DNA from: a virus
Length of the DNA stretch: 39,978 nt
IMG/VR virus record: IMGVR_UViG_3300044825_000320
Location: 1 to 39,978 of that record
Strand: one strand, 5' to 3'
Below the pieces are notes generated by a model. It had not been told where the DNA came from. It did no database searches and saw only the letters and a program-made list of their open reading frames with translations. A program made the translations under genes and the position numbers. Below, one piece after another: positions 10,864 to 25,756 of this stretch (its first letter is position 1; each line of letters starts with the position of its first letter).

Positions 10864-11015
10864 TCTACTTCTTTCTCCAATTTGTCAAAGTTGTCTTCAA
10901 TTAAATCTACAAATCTCTCAACGAGATCCTCAGATGATATATCAAGAAGTTCTAACAAGTCAACTTCATTTATTTGCTTTAGTCTGTCTTTTAGATCGTG
11001 TATTGTTAGTGCCAT
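10860..11015 (-). CDS. Small acidic helical protein upstream of nrdJ
   Basis: A 51-codon gene. It begins MALTIHDLKDRLKQINEVDL and continues as an acidic, Leu/Asp/Glu-rich helical protein. GAAGG lies about 10 bases before the ATG. Its stop overlaps the nrdJ start (ATGA), and its start lies within the 3' end of the glycosyltransferase gene by 50 bases. The tight coupling suggests co-translation with the reductase. Function is not known. Confidence 0.75.
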   Translation of the reverse strand: MALTIHDLKDRLKQINEVDLLELLDISSEDLVERFVDLIEDNFDKLEKEVE

Positions 11016-11982
11016 CTTTCTTTACCTTCTGTGGTTGTTGAAAATACTGAACTGCTTTGTTTAATCCCTCTTCCCATGTATCAAACCAAACGGTTTTCAT
11101 ACTATCATACCAGTAAGTAGTTTCGCATTTGGGAAACCATCTCCAGCAAGCTAGTCTTTCTTTACCGATTAAGTTTACTACAGGAACTCCTACCGATCCA
11201 GCACAATGCGCTATTGCAGAATCAACAGAGATTACGCCATCGAGAGTCTGAATATAATCAGCAGTATCGCTCCAGTAAGGAGAAGTAATAACACCTTCGT
11301 CTTGCTGCAACGACACCCAATCAAACTCAGGATGCTCTCGAATAAATCTTAACATAATTTCCTGTGGCATTCTTTTAGCGTCCACATTCCAACTATTGTT
11401 TTTAGTCATATAGCAATAACCTAATAATGGTTTTTCTCTAACAGGCTTGACAATATCGGAATTACGGAATATGCCTTCGCTACCATAAATCTTCTTAACA
11501 GGCTCTGCTGGAATAACATTATGCTCCATTAAGAAGTACGGTAACGACATCACTTTTAGTTTTACTGCGCTAGGGAAAGGCTCTCCTGCACGATAAAAAC
11601 CGTGATGATTCGGTAATCTTTTGAGTAAGCGGATAACAGCGTCAGGAAACAACAACTTGATCTGTTTAACACCCGCTTGAGGAAGTAGCGGAATAAAGCG
11701 ACTAAACTGCATAATATCGCCCCATCCTGCTTCACTCCACACGATAACATTCTTACCTTTGCACTCCATTCCGGGTATCCAGACAGGAGTTTTCTCAAAA
11801 TCAGTCTTGACCCCTTGTGGGAGTCTCAGATTAGGCAAAGAACGCAACTCGTGTAGATAAAAGCCGTATTCCCAATCGCCTTGCTTAATCAGCTCCATCC
11901 CTTGCTGATAAGCTGGATTGGCGGCTTGTTGATCTCGAATAGCGTAGAAGTTAATCCTACGATTCTTATTTAAGTGTATCAT
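10966..11982 (-). CDS. GT9/TPR-type glycosyltransferase-like protein
   Basis: A 338-residue protein. A short TPR-like element (residues ~28-46, GMELIKQGDWEYGFYLHELR) precedes a GT-B-like domain: nucleotide-fold start EAGWGDIMQFSRFIPLL (~85), a middle SLQQDEG segment, and the late motif DGVISVDSAIAHCAGSVGVP with a terminal W-R-W. This is the pattern of TPR-linked proteins related to ADP-heptose:LPS heptosyltransferases. The donor and acceptor are unknown; a capsule, LPS or virion glycan is possible. The basic C-terminal tail overlaps the next gene. It is unusual inside a replication operon. Confidence 0.72.
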   Translation of the reverse strand: MIHLNKNRRINFYAIRDQQAANPAYQQGMELIKQGDWEYGFYLHELRSLPNLRLPQGVKTDFEKTPVWIPGMECKGKNVIVWSEAGWGDIMQFSRFIPLLPQAGVKQIKLLFPDAVIRLLKRLPNHHGFYRAGEPFPSAVKLKVMSLPYFLMEHNVIPAEPVKKIYGSEGIFRNSDIVKPVREKPLLGYCYMTKNNSWNVDAKRMPQEIMLRFIREHPEFDWVSLQQDEGVITSPYWSDTADYIQTLDGVISVDSAIAHCAGSVGVPVVNLIGKERLACWRWFPKCETTYWYDSMKTVWFDTWEEGLNKAVQYFQQPQKVKKDGTNNTRSKRQTKANK

Positions 11983-17092: not shown

Positions 17093-17746
17093 TTATCTTA
17101 CTTTATGTGCTAGGTTTTTGTCAACAAATATTAAATTTGAACCGCATTTGATTATAGAATAATAACCAACATTGTGCATCAATGTTCGGATGTCCTCTTC
17201 GCTATAAGGTTGGATCTCAACACAAACAACTCTAAACGGGAATCGCCTAAAATCGATGCTCTGTAACACCTCAAAGTCCATGCCTTCAATATCAATCGAT
17301 AATAGGTCAGGTATCCGACGATTCTTTAAAATATGCTCGATAGTGAATATAGGTATCTGTCGAACTTCGGTGATCGAAAACTGCGGATAATCCATCACAA
17401 AGCCTTCAGCAACCTCTTTTATGAAGCTATTTCGACCAGATTCGCCATCAATCATGTAAAAATCCTGAAATCCTGCCTTAATACCAACACCAACATTAAG
17501 GTTAATATCTTGTGGTCTTTGCTCTAGGAACAGTTTATACAGATTTGGATTTGCCTCCACATTAATACCACGAGAACCACTGTCGTAAAGCAGTTTAGTG
17601 TTACTAATATTCTCTGGGTGGTGCGCTCCGAGATCGAGATATGAAGGACAGCTAATACCCAAAGAGTGAAAGACAGCCCTAATAACAATATCATCGCCGT
17701 GTTGTGCATAAGTCTTATCTCCAAAGAGTTGATCAGGATGTGCCAT
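17093..17746 (-). CDS. FkbM-family methyltransferase
   Basis: A 217-residue SAM-dependent methyltransferase. Motif I is SYLDLGAHHPENIS, an acidic strand end (GINVEANPNLYKLF) binds the SAM ribose, and the diagnostic FkbM strand is LLSIDIEGMDFEVLQSIDF, followed by VCVEIQ. FkbM enzymes usually O-methylate sugars or polyketides, so a glycan substrate is likely. The gene sits directly upstream of the polymerase with 4 bases between. Together with the GT9-like gene it suggests surface glycan editing, though the two are 5 kb apart. Confidence 0.87.
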   Translation of the reverse strand: MAHPDQLFGDKTYAQHGDDIVIRAVFHSLGISCPSYLDLGAHHPENISNTKLLYDSGSRGINVEANPNLYKLFLEQRPQDINLNVGVGIKAGFQDFYMIDGESGRNSFIKEVAEGFVMDYPQFSITEVRQIPIFTIEHILKNRRIPDLLSIDIEGMDFEVLQSIDFRRFPFRVVCVEIQPYSEEDIRTLMHNVGYYSIIKCGSNLIFVDKNLAHKVR

Positions 17747-22263: not shown

Positions 22264-22358
22264 ACCATTTAGGTTACATAGAGGTCGTATCGAATTCATT
22301 ACCATTGAGGTTACATAGTAATTTCTCGGATCGATTTATCTACCATTGAGGTTACATA
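22264..22358. repeat. Three iteron-like direct repeats
   Basis: ACCATTGAGGTTACATA is found at 22301-22317 and 22342-22358, and as ACCATTTAGGTTACATA (one change) at 22264-22280. Start-to-start spacing is 37 and 41 bases, near 3.5-4 helical turns. Shorter ATTACATAA copies lie at about 22220 and 22362. They sit just upstream of the early promoter in AT-rich DNA: candidate protein-binding sites for origin function or transcription control. Confidence 0.75.
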
Positions 22359-22432: not shown

Positions 22433-22462
22433 AAACCCTAATTCAATTTTAAGGGCATTTTT

Positions 22463-22658
22463 AGGGCTTTACAGCTGTTTTTTAAGTTTAGGCTATATAG
22501 ATATTCCCAATGCCTAAAAAACGGCTTATAGATCGTTTTAAGGGCTTTAAATTGGTATTGATTAGCTAGAATAGGGCTTTAGGGCTTGAATACAGGGCTT
22601 TAGAGAATAAAAAAACCCTGATCCATACAGCGATCAGGGCTAAAGGGTTTAAGGGCTT
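22463..22658. repeat. Cluster of six AGGGCTT words around a terminator
   Basis: AGGGCTT occurs at 22463, 22541, 22573, 22581, 22594 and 22652 on the + strand, four of them followed by T. Between them lies AT-rich DNA with no gene. Spacing is irregular, so this is not a CRISPR. They could be binding sites, or simple sequence drift in an untranslated region. Confidence 0.55.
22609..22639 (-). terminator. Rho-independent terminator of the amidoligase cassette
   Basis: Read on the - strand: CCCTGATC (22632-22639), an 8-base loop, GATCAGGG (22616-22623), then seven T (22609-22615). The 8-bp perfect stem and U-tract are textbook. It lies 84 bases after the amidotransferase stop and would separate that operon from the replication arm. 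Confidence 0.88.
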
Positions 22659-22722
22659 ACAGCTTTAATAGAGAAATATTAGAAATATCAATAATCGAAT
22701 CCTGAGTATAAAGGCATAAATC

Positions 22723-23748
22723 CTAGAAATAAGCGATCTCATTTTCTGCCCTTGCGATCTTAGATTCTTCATTAGATAGCCATTCAAATATTGATTTGGC
22801 ATAACTAAAATCCGATATTGATCGGATAAAAGTATTTTCATCTACTTGATTATCTAAAACCATTACACACAAATCCTGAAAACTTAACATACCAAATTTA
22901 GAAATAAATCGTTTAGCTTGAGTGTATGAAAGAGATCCGGCTTTGTCATAACCCAATTCAAAAAACTCATTTACAGCGATATCAATTTCATTATCAATAT
23001 AGGTATTAGCATTATCAATAGAATTTTCAGAGTAATAGCTTTTATACGGATAAGAATAAGAATAGTCATAAGGGTATGAATAAGACCCATAACTTAATTT
23101 AGGTTTATCCGGATTCTCTAAAATCTGAGATTCCCAGAGTTTTAGATCGTTTTCTTGCTTATCACTCGCTGAATTACTAGCACTCCATGCGTAAGTATTA
23201 CTGAGCCATAAACCTGCCCAATATACTCCCTGATCCTGATTTATGACAGCTGTTCGACCTAGATTATCCATTAGCACAAATTTATTAGATGTCCCAATAT
23301 GATCTGAAATGATGTCATTAAATGCGGGACTAAATGCAAAATCAGGATTCTTATAGAGCATTGGATAGAGATAATCCTTGATGTAATGCCATGTATCAGA
23401 TTTAGAGATATCGGCTTTATTATCTGTATGTAATATGCCATTGTGCATAAGCCATAAATCAATGCCATGATCTGCTTTATTCAGTATTTCGTATGGGTGG
23501 CAGTTGATAAGATCAATGTGCCCATGAGTTTTCATTCTTAAATGAAATGCACAATCGTATCCAAATATATGCTTTTCATAAAAGTTTATAAAATCATCTG
23601 CATCTTTCGGCAAAATTTTCTCTACGATCAATTCATTATTTTCTGATCGCATAACCCCTATGCCATCTGCATTATAAGAATAAAAATCTTTTAACCATTC
23701 ATGGGTTAATTTAGGGCTTACTTTAGATTGTGTAACTAATAGACACAT
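22723..23748 (-). CDS. Class II glutamine amidotransferase-like protein
   Basis: A 341-residue Ntn-type enzyme predicted to release ammonia from glutamine. After Met removal Cys2 (MCLL) is the nucleophile. NADGIGV (26-32), FHLRMKTHG (68-76, the Gln-binding Arg loop) and LMHNGIL (100-106) complete the site. A Ser/Tyr/Pro-rich low-complexity linker (~218-240) precedes a helical C-terminal region with no known domain. AAAAAGGA lies before the ATG. The gene follows the amidoligase gene by 30 bases in the same operon, implying that it feeds nitrogen to the ligase or shares its substrate. The DNA is visibly AT-rich. Confidence 0.83.
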   Translation of the reverse strand: MCLLVTQSKVSPKLTHEWLKDFYSYNADGIGVMRSENNELIVEKILPKDADDFINFYEKHIFGYDCAFHLRMKTHGHIDLINCHPYEILNKADHGIDLWLMHNGILHTDNKADISKSDTWHYIKDYLYPMLYKNPDFAFSPAFNDIISDHIGTSNKFVLMDNLGRTAVINQDQGVYWAGLWLSNTYAWSASNSASDKQENDLKLWESQILENPDKPKLSYGSYSYPYDYSYSYPYKSYYSENSIDNANTYIDNEIDIAVNEFFELGYDKAGSLSYTQAKRFISKFGMLSFQDLCVMVLDNQVDENTFIRSISDFSYAKSIFEWLSNEESKIARAENEIAYF

Positions 23749-23778
23749 AATATTAAATTCCTTTTTAAGTTGAGTTGA

Positions 23779-25134
23779 TTAGATTTCAGCTGTTACTAAT
23801 TGATTGTTTTCGATTCTAGGATTCTGCTTAGGTATTTCAGGGATATTAAATAAATGCTCTTTTAAATATGCCCTTAAATATTTGGTATCAGCTTTGTTTT
23901 CAGGTTTACAGATAAATTGAAAAAACTTTTCTGTTGTCAAATCCTGATATCCGTAATCCTTACAGAAAAACCAAGTTGCGTAAGTAAACTCAAGGCATGA
24001 CATTATTGTTTCAAATTTCAGAGTCCCTTTGAATAAACGAAATTCTACTGTTCGATCATTCTGAAAGTTTAGAGATTCATAGCGATCTTCATTCAAATTA
24101 CACAAGGGATCATGTGATCTTTTTGCCGATTTTAACCATGAATAATCTGCTTTTTTATTTAATACCTTCGAAAAGCGATTAGATGATCTTCTGGCTAGAG
24201 ATTTAATCAGTTTTTGATTACCGCTATCGTTTATAAAGAGAATCATTTTTGCGGCATGGTTTAAACTCATGTGCTTTTTATCAATATGAATGTGTAAACC
24301 GCAAGTTTGCGTATCATGCGATCTTAGACCCCTAATAGGCTTTTTGAAAAATGCTAATTGCTTTTCATGGACATCTAAACCCGTATAACCCGTAACCATT
24401 TCAAAACCATTATTAAGCGATCCATCATTTTCGAGTAAGCAGTAAGTATGCAATCTGCCTTTATGATCTGCATAAAATTTAAGATTATCTAAGATATATT
24501 CAGCTTTTTCTAGTCTTGAATAATCGTCTGTAACTTCCATCTCTAACTCAAGCCCTAAAAATACCTGAGATTTTCGCTTATCAAATTCACTCGGGATTTT
24601 GCCTAGGTGATAGCTAGATGAATGATATTCACCAATGACAGATTCATCTTCATCTTCATCATTTGAATAGTTTTCATCGTCTGAATGAACATATTGTTCT
24701 GATCTTTCATGGTAGTAGTAATCATTAAAACATCTTGAGCATACAGCTGTATCGCCTTCATAGGCATAATTAGCTTGATCCCGATTCTCTATTAAACCGC
24801 AATCATCACAAATATAAACTTCTGTATTAAATTTAGTTTCGAACAATTCATATATATTGTGGATAGTGGATCGAACAGGTCTGAATTCATGATCATTTAG
24901 AAAACCTAAAACACATTCATAATCTTGATCAGAGATACAGCTTCGAATCACAGCGGCAAACCTTTTTCTTAATAGTTTCATCTGCGGATAAAAACTCTGC
25001 TGAATAGAATAATCTCTTGAATATGAAAGATTCTTACTCATCACATTAGTTTTCATATCATCTCGAATTTTCATACTTGCAAAACTATGAGAATTCCTAC
25101 CTTTATATTCATTAAATAGTTGATTTAAATTCAT
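23779..25134 (-). CDS. Amidoligase (carboxylate-amine ligase) with zinc-binding N-terminal region
   Basis: A 451-residue protein. Residues 1-105 are helical and unassigned. A CxxC...CxxC zinc motif (C109, C112, C132, C135) and a Tyr/His/acid-rich stretch follow. The ligase domain begins at FLGLELEMEV (192-201) and continues with LENDGSL (234-240), GFEMVT (243-248), CGLHIHID (278-285) and DRTVEFRLFKGTL (360-372). These are the ordered acidic and His motifs of the glutamine synthetase-like amidoligase superfamily, which uses ATP to form amide bonds. The substrate is unknown. GAAAGGG precedes the ATG. It is paired with the amidotransferase gene and led by a membrane microprotein. Confidence 0.85.
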   Translation of the reverse strand: MNLNQLFNEYKGRNSHSFASMKIRDDMKTNVMSKNLSYSRDYSIQQSFYPQMKLLRKRFAAVIRSCISDQDYECVLGFLNDHEFRPVRSTIHNIYELFETKFNTEVYICDDCGLIENRDQANYAYEGDTAVCSRCFNDYYYHERSEQYVHSDDENYSNDEDEDESVIGEYHSSSYHLGKIPSEFDKRKSQVFLGLELEMEVTDDYSRLEKAEYILDNLKFYADHKGRLHTYCLLENDGSLNNGFEMVTGYTGLDVHEKQLAFFKKPIRGLRSHDTQTCGLHIHIDKKHMSLNHAAKMILFINDSGNQKLIKSLARRSSNRFSKVLNKKADYSWLKSAKRSHDPLCNLNEDRYESLNFQNDRTVEFRLFKGTLKFETIMSCLEFTYATWFFCKDYGYQDLTTEKFFQFICKPENKADTKYLRAYLKEHLFNIPEIPKQNPRIENNQLVTAEI

Positions 25135-25157
25135 TTCTTAACCCTTTCAATAGTTGA

Positions 25158-25256
25158 TTAAATTGAATGTAAGACTACTCGAACAGCTTGAAACACTACA
25201 TAGAAAACACAGATCCAAAGGATCACATTCCAGATACCATCTTGAATAAATTTCAT
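25158..25256 (-). CDS. 32-residue single-pass membrane microprotein
   Basis: A short gene starting MKFIQDGIWNVILWICVFYV and ending in VVLHSI. One hydrophobic segment (about 8-28), a charged N-end and an Arg near the C-end give a clear membrane span. The ribosome context (AAAGGGTTAAAG) is nearly identical to that of the amidoligase gene 23 bases downstream. It is the first gene of the cassette and could anchor the enzymes at the membrane or act on its own. Confidence 0.72.
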   Translation of the reverse strand: MKFIQDGIWNVILWICVFYVVFQAVRVVLHSI

Positions 25257-25306
25257 AGCTTTAACCCTTTATAAATATGCCGATATTGGCACTCTTGATT
25301 TTACTG

Positions 25307-25727: not shown

Positions 25728-25756
25728 TTGACAAATGTAAAAAAATATGCTATAGT
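25728..25756 (+). promoter_or_regulatory. Strong sigma70-type promoter for packaging/late genes
   Basis: TTGACA (25728-25733), exactly 17 bases, then TATAGT (25751-25756) with an extended TGC just before it. This is one base from full consensus in total. The predicted start is ~25763, about 180 bases upstream of the first gene. A + strand promoter here would serve the whole rightward arm. Confidence 0.85.

Follow-up and report, generated by a model that had tools for sequence, protein, structure and literature searches.

Gene pairs encoding an amidoligase (AL) and a class II glutamine amidotransferase (GAT) have already been reported from phiEco32, from LUZ24-like and RIO-1-like phages and from OM43 phages (PMC3890496, PMC5498523, PMC10580990). 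The peptide-modification cassette of the phiEco32, LUZ24 and RIO-1 type consists of an amidoligase, a class II GATase, a COOH-NH2 ligase, a RimK-like ATP-grasp protein and a GGCT. For relatives of the phiEco32 type, modification of the envelope or cell wall against superinfection has been proposed, speculatively (PMC10580990, PMC5498523), and a role in auxiliary metabolism has been proposed for the similar gene set of Phage-ZRK32 (PMC10945688). In GatD/MurT, which amidates lipid II in Gram-positive bacteria, a glutaminase subunit feeds an ATP-dependent amide-forming subunit (PMC3266927). Annotations of amidoligase-amidotransferase genes in phages go back to 2009; no demonstrated function for them was found. 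A sequence-only reading of the present locus had held its microprotein-led arrangement to be undescribed. Within the literature searched, this holds for the microprotein arrangement and not for the enzyme pair itself, which is published; what appear to be new are the recurrent single-span microproteins that accompany the two-enzyme cassette and the copies in defence islands. No description of either, and no paper joining an amidoligase with antiphage activity, was found in that literature, which included few subscription papers.

The window is an entire IMG/VR record of 39,978 bases and belongs to an uncultured tailed phage whose terminase and capsid have distant cultured relatives only. Rightward genes encode structural and packaging proteins, and the leftward block encodes a class II ribonucleotide reductase, a PolA-type polymerase, a primase-helicase and an exonuclease. 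The leftward block begins with the cassette, composed of a 32-aa ORF (25158-25256), AL (23779-25134) and GAT (22723-23748). These three adjacent genes, recognised by the sequence-only reading, are real, and all lie on the minus strand, which that reading had left unstated. The two-enzyme version is minimal, at about 2.4 kb. The GC content of the cassette is 32.2% against 41.7% in the rest of the record, of which it is the lowest-GC 2.5 kb. Across cassettes generally the deficit is weak (median -1.1 points, p 0.057), so low GC marks the clade of the window and not all cassettes. The replication block also contains two candidate envelope- or DNA-modifying genes, one for a glycosyltransferase-9-like protein that scored under the cut-off (10966-11982, minus strand) and one for an FkbM methyltransferase (17093-17746, minus strand). 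No Rfam elements were found in the window.

The cassette is closed by an intrinsic terminator at 22614-22641 on the minus strand (AGCCCTGATC-GCTGTATG-GATCAGGGTT followed by T7), which is supported by folding and by conservation in five phages. The stem, read from 22641 to 22614, has a folding energy of -16.7 kcal/mol (z -3.4) and is almost unchanged in the four related phages L002, L003, L010 and L012, in agreement with the strong U-tract terminator first noticed in the sequence. The extended -10 promoter TGCTATATA proposed for the other end did not survive the comparison: it is altered in L002 and missing in L003, L010 and L012, and the promoter scan of the window returned no minus-strand site at that place. 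The conserved block there is an imperfect palindrome, TGCCAATATCGGCA (25278-25291, minus strand), together with the ribosome-binding site (RBS) of the microORF that follows immediately. The palindrome is kept in five aligned phages while the DNA around it diverges, is also listed as a plus-strand stem, and is a candidate operator or mRNA hairpin. The RBS of the microORF (AAAGGGTT) is likewise conserved in aligned relatives. Near-identical ribosome sites had been claimed for all three genes; this is correct for the microORF (AAAGGGTTAA) and AL (AAAGGGTTAAG) and incorrect for GAT (AAAAAGGAAT). On the plus strand, a very strong sigma70-type site (TTGACA-17-TATAGT with an extended TG, 11/12) is present at 25728-25756 and is directed toward the terminase genes. 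The gap that separates the cassette terminator from the following leftward genes contains three copies of CCATT(T/G)AGGTTACATA, at 22265-22280, 22302-22317 and 22343-22358 (chance expectation 0.08), which are possible regulator or origin sites. In addition, TAGGGCTTTA motifs are repeated around the terminator (22458-22664) and are kept in relatives too.

GAT (341 aa) is a class II (Ntn) amidotransferase as judged from its invariant residues, an AlphaFold model and Foldseek, with an N-terminal Cys2 and a C-terminal helical domain at residues 244-340. The sequence alone gave no Pfam match and, at best, a weak match to NCBIfam GlmS (E 0.04-0.07). GATase_4 is matched by 50 of 64 GAT relatives, and the GAT profile matches PurF and GlmS structures, which bears out the class assigned by the sequence-only reading. 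That reading had let the assignment hang on Cys2 in close homologues; M1-C2 is invariant in all 64, placing the nucleophile Cys directly after Met. Also invariant are R71, T74, G76, H102-N103-G104 and S117-D118-T119, and the glutamine-binding and oxyanion motifs RxxTxG, HNG and SDT are all intact. The AlphaFold model (pLDDT 87.2) recovered the GlmS glutaminase (E 1.6e-6), PurF and EgtC in a Foldseek search of the PDB, that is, the Ntn hydrolase fold.

AL (451 aa) has a helical N-terminus, a Zn-ribbon formed by C109, C112, C132 and C135, and a catalytic domain of the glutamine synthetase (GS) fold from about residue 190. It matches Pfam PF12224 (Amidoligase_2) with an E-value of 7.8e-7 and 29.6 bits against a curated cut-off of 22, and several PHROG amidoligase families. 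Residues E196, E198, D237, E245, H281, H283, R316, R351, E364 and R366 are invariant in 67 homologues and include the GS-type motifs ExE (E196/E198), GxHxH (H281/H283) and ExR (E364/R366); their roles are presumably those established for GS-type enzymes. The AL profile returned chance zinc-finger matches only against PDB sequences, and the fold search succeeded instead. With the AlphaFold model (pLDDT 87.8), Foldseek retrieved YbdK, glutamine synthetase, gamma-glutamylmethylamide synthetase and PafA from the PDB at E-values of 2e-5 to 1e-3 and TM-scores of 0.2-0.4, so that the fold class is supported and no structural relative is close. The expected amidoligase fold is therefore present in the product of 23779-25134. 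The four cysteines, described earlier as a CxxC...CxxC insert, are present and more than 90% conserved in homologues; they lie upstream of the catalytic domain as an N-terminal Zn-ribbon and do not interrupt it. Many AL homologues whose match extends over the Zn-ribbon, several per genome and without GAT, were also seen, mostly in genomes of Ruminococcus and other Clostridia (L194-L268); they constitute a large uncharacterised cellular family.

From these folds and invariant residues, glutamine-fed, ATP-dependent amide formation by AL-GAT is very probable. Removal of Met1 would leave Cys2 free to hydrolyse glutamine, and AL, through its GS-type active site, would use ATP to activate a carboxylate and couple it, as an amide, to the ammonia released by GAT or to a different amine, its Zn-ribbon perhaps contacting the substrate or a partner. 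The idea of a self-contained amide-bond-forming module is well supported by the intact catalytic residues, the conserved terminator of its own, a GC content of 32% versus 42%, and the lack of RimK and GGACT elsewhere in the record. RimK ATP-grasp (PF08443) and GGACT (PF06094) were absent from the record, the completeness of which is not stated, and the controls were detected. The COOH-NH2 ligase family PF14395 had no match in the record, but its control also matched nowhere; tblastn with the COOH-NH2 ligase protein of UFV-P2 gave no match.

In viruses, GAT adjoins AL in 101 of 106 distinct viral ALs, the other five end at a contig edge and none is unpaired; some of these loci were collected via GAT, and those collected via AL alone behave alike. 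Eighty-nine representative cassettes (90% identity) form nine groups with no flanking gene in common and occur in many phage backgrounds. Named phages with the pair are MW202733 (Podoviridae sp. ctgrD200), MEP401 and MEP402. The new profiles also find, with low scores, the AL of phiEco32 and UFV-P2 and the GAT of phiEco32, LUZ24 and UFV-P2.

Chromosomal copies also exist. A single scan across 84,980 species genomes placed nine AL-GAT pairs among its best 80 AL loci. Two Polynucleobacter loci (L189, L190) share the gene order tyrosine integrase, AL-GAT, SIR2, HerA and relaxase, and in a third (L191) HicA/HicB and other genes take the place of SIR2-HerA; AL-GAT of L189 and L191 is 91% identical at the DNA level, with different neighbouring cargo. 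Two Ignavibacteria MAGs carry the pair with a resolvase-family recombinase on one side and, on the other, TIR/short pAgo genes (L211) or QatC accompanied by a TatD-like gene (L223). The remaining four pairs (L192, L193, L220, L245) are phage-like, as judged by eye only. Among 399 genomes from the Polynucleobacter family, GAT was detected in three, twice as a weak partial match; it was also detected in 3 of 186 species of the genus Polynucleobacter and in 3 of 294 genomes of the class Ignavibacteria, and the gene is rare in bacteria. The examined chromosomal copies occur in mobile or defence islands and represent about three independent cases. Because they stand beside integrase or resolvase and defence genes, these cases are read as a sign that AL-GAT acts in conflicts between mobile elements, and the chromosomal pairs are possibly an unrecognised defence module. 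Among plasmids, AL adjoins a class II GATase on the linear plasmid pGD21-2 of Mycobacteroides abscessus (L356), near a replicative helicase and with no defence context seen around it; an Ideonella plasmid has a GAT-like ORF without an annotated AL.

The third gene of the cassette (25158-25256, minus strand) encodes a single-TM microprotein, MKFIQDGIWNVILWICVFYVVFQAVRVVLHSI, of a family designated U1 (QxxR motif), as supported by orthologues, purifying selection and its conserved RBS. Orthologues 51-88% identical occur at the same position in seven contigs, the nearest relatives. The microORFs of L003 and L010 differ by 10 synonymous and no nonsynonymous changes and those of the window and L002 by 13 synonymous and six nonsynonymous, which shows purifying selection on the 32-aa protein. 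A chance ORF is ruled out by conservation and synonymous bias. The survey of contigs suggested earlier found the trio of microORF, AL and GAT in seven others, and this retention, with the synonymous bias between L003 and L010, places the trio beyond chance. Short single-TM ORFs recur beside AL-GAT, with families U1, U2 and U3 upstream of AL and D1 and D2 downstream of GAT, where a few-base overlap with the GAT stop is common. In the families tested, nonsynonymous changes per site are fewer than synonymous ones, except in one near-identical pair. Under a strict rule (ATG, RBS, 20-65 aa, a hydrophobic 17-mer of at least 2.0, within 60 nt of the cassette), a microprotein flanks 27 of 65 core cassettes (the freshwater-phage clade of the two-gene cassette). 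The outgroup has one such case in 24 cassettes, and the control set, made up of non-cassette genes of 200 aa or more from the same contigs, has five in 145. Under a relaxed rule the counts are 42/65, 3/24 and 18/145. Fisher's test on 27/65 versus 5/145 gives 1e-11, a value that ignores relatedness among cassettes and rests on a core/outgroup split drawn after the tree was known. No convincing TM segment fused to any AL or GAT was found in a Rosetta-stone check for membrane anchoring. An exclusive tie of microproteins to AL-GAT was considered and is untrue for D2 and partly for U2. D2-like single-span microproteins (e.g., MKKIFDFIGACLLGAVLGAMFAYGLLGGF) were seen by themselves in the early regions of further freshwater phages (L290-L295, L299, L315, L333, L335). 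In L040 and L057, a 29-30 aa CxxC...CxxC peptide (MTTQELRCPICSRNKRWGNHIICAHCRNT) directly after GAT replaces the TM microprotein.

Taken together, the locus is best explained as an acquired phage cassette (moron) with its own terminator that would encode a glutamine-dependent amide-forming enzyme. Its target would most likely be a host envelope peptide or protein, e.g., a carboxylate of a peptidoglycan precursor at the cytoplasmic membrane; a target at the envelope or membrane is about evenly balanced between right and wrong. In the modified infected cell, competing phages or elements would fare worse, making the cassette a superinfection-exclusion or inter-element-conflict module, a benefit judged slightly short of an even chance. 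This exclusion reading draws on the published superinfection proposals for phiEco32-type relatives and on the chromosomal island context. The single-TM microprotein would be a fast-evolving, phage-specific and optional accessory, most likely serving to recruit the activity to the membrane, a possibility already raised by the sequence-only reading, and it may equally well be, or not be, such a functional partner; it is dispensable for the chemistry, since it is missing from chromosomal pairs and from some phage clades. The explanation as a whole, with sub-claims that are correlated and the microprotein role as the softest part, is put forward tentatively, at somewhat under an even chance. The few defence-island cases, the rarity of the gene and the lack of a PADLOC match (no family among the PADLOC models matches AL, GAT or the microprotein) count against it, as does the tendency of mobile islands to gather cargo of many sorts.

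AL-GAT might act as just described while the microprotein is an unrelated early membrane gene of the phage, host-takeover or toxin-like, that is merely a neighbour or hitchhiker. Such independence would account for D2 and two U2 microproteins that are also seen apart from AL-GAT in other freshwater phages, for the examined chromosomal islands, in which no clear microprotein was found, and for the several cassette clades that have none or carry the CxxC peptide instead. It fits poorly with U1 and D1, which always adjoined AL-GAT among the collection matches (7/7 each), with the strong enrichment relative to the control genes from those contigs, and with the AL+GAT tree, in which upstream and downstream arrangements occupy separate regions, so that the side of the cassette follows the phylogeny of the enzymes. 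An unrelated microprotein is considered somewhat unlikely.

Counter-defence or host takeover, in which AL-GAT would amidate or conjugate a host protein or small molecule (RNA polymerase or a defence signal, for example) while the phage itself is infecting the cell, is quite unlikely: AL does share its fold class with the protein-modifying ligase PafA, a Zn-ribbon would suit recognition of protein or nucleic acid, and the cassette heads the leftward block that contains the replication genes, but chromosomal copies have defence genes as neighbours in bacterial islands, a setting in which a gene for phage counter-defence would be of no use to the host. Auxiliary metabolism, i.e., synthesis of a gamma-glutamyl or other amide metabolite that aids nitrogen use in infected cells, is very unlikely, since island context and membrane microproteins would be unexpected and no RimK ATP-grasp or GGACT partner is detectable in the window, although it has been proposed for the similar Phage-ZRK32 gene set (PMC10945688) and YbdK and GS, whose substrates are free amino acids, are among the closest solved folds.

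The envelope-directed exclusion cassette remains the preferred reading, and the pairing of AL-GAT with tiny membrane proteins, together with its presence in anti-virus islands, suggests a weapon against competing phages. A bolder form, that AL-GAT is an undescribed antiphage or superinfection-exclusion system common to phages and bacterial defence islands, and that in phages it is a membrane-bound three-part complex in which fast-evolving single-span microproteins recruit AL-GAT to the membrane or are modified there, is unlikely to hold in full. The minimal cassette, its recurrent membrane partner and the island copies turn a vague proposal of cell-wall modification into a testable one, and raise the question of whether a two-gene amide-forming unit blocks phage infection and what becomes amidated.

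Compared with known systems, the locus resembles the cassette of phiEco32, LUZ24 and RIO-1 in having AL close to a class II GATase and differs in having two enzymes only, of very divergent sequence; the small genes that flank the GATases of phiEco32/LUZ24-type phages are not short single-span membrane proteins. With the OM43 phages MEP401 and MEP402 and with MW202733 it shares adjacent AL and GAT, in that order, at one end of an early region, at 26-35% identity, and no microprotein meeting the rules used here was found beside those pairs. The Pup ligase PafA/Dop has the same GS-like ligase fold and likewise acts on carboxylates, as predicted for AL, which differs in being paired with a GATase and in having no Pup-like protein in sight. 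Like GatD/MurT, AL-GAT is predicted to consist of a glutaminase that supplies an ATP-dependent amide-forming partner. GatD and MurT have the folds of a class I GATase and a Mur ligase, respectively, and AL-GAT differs from them in both subunits, combining a class II Ntn amidotransferase with an enzyme of the GS fold.
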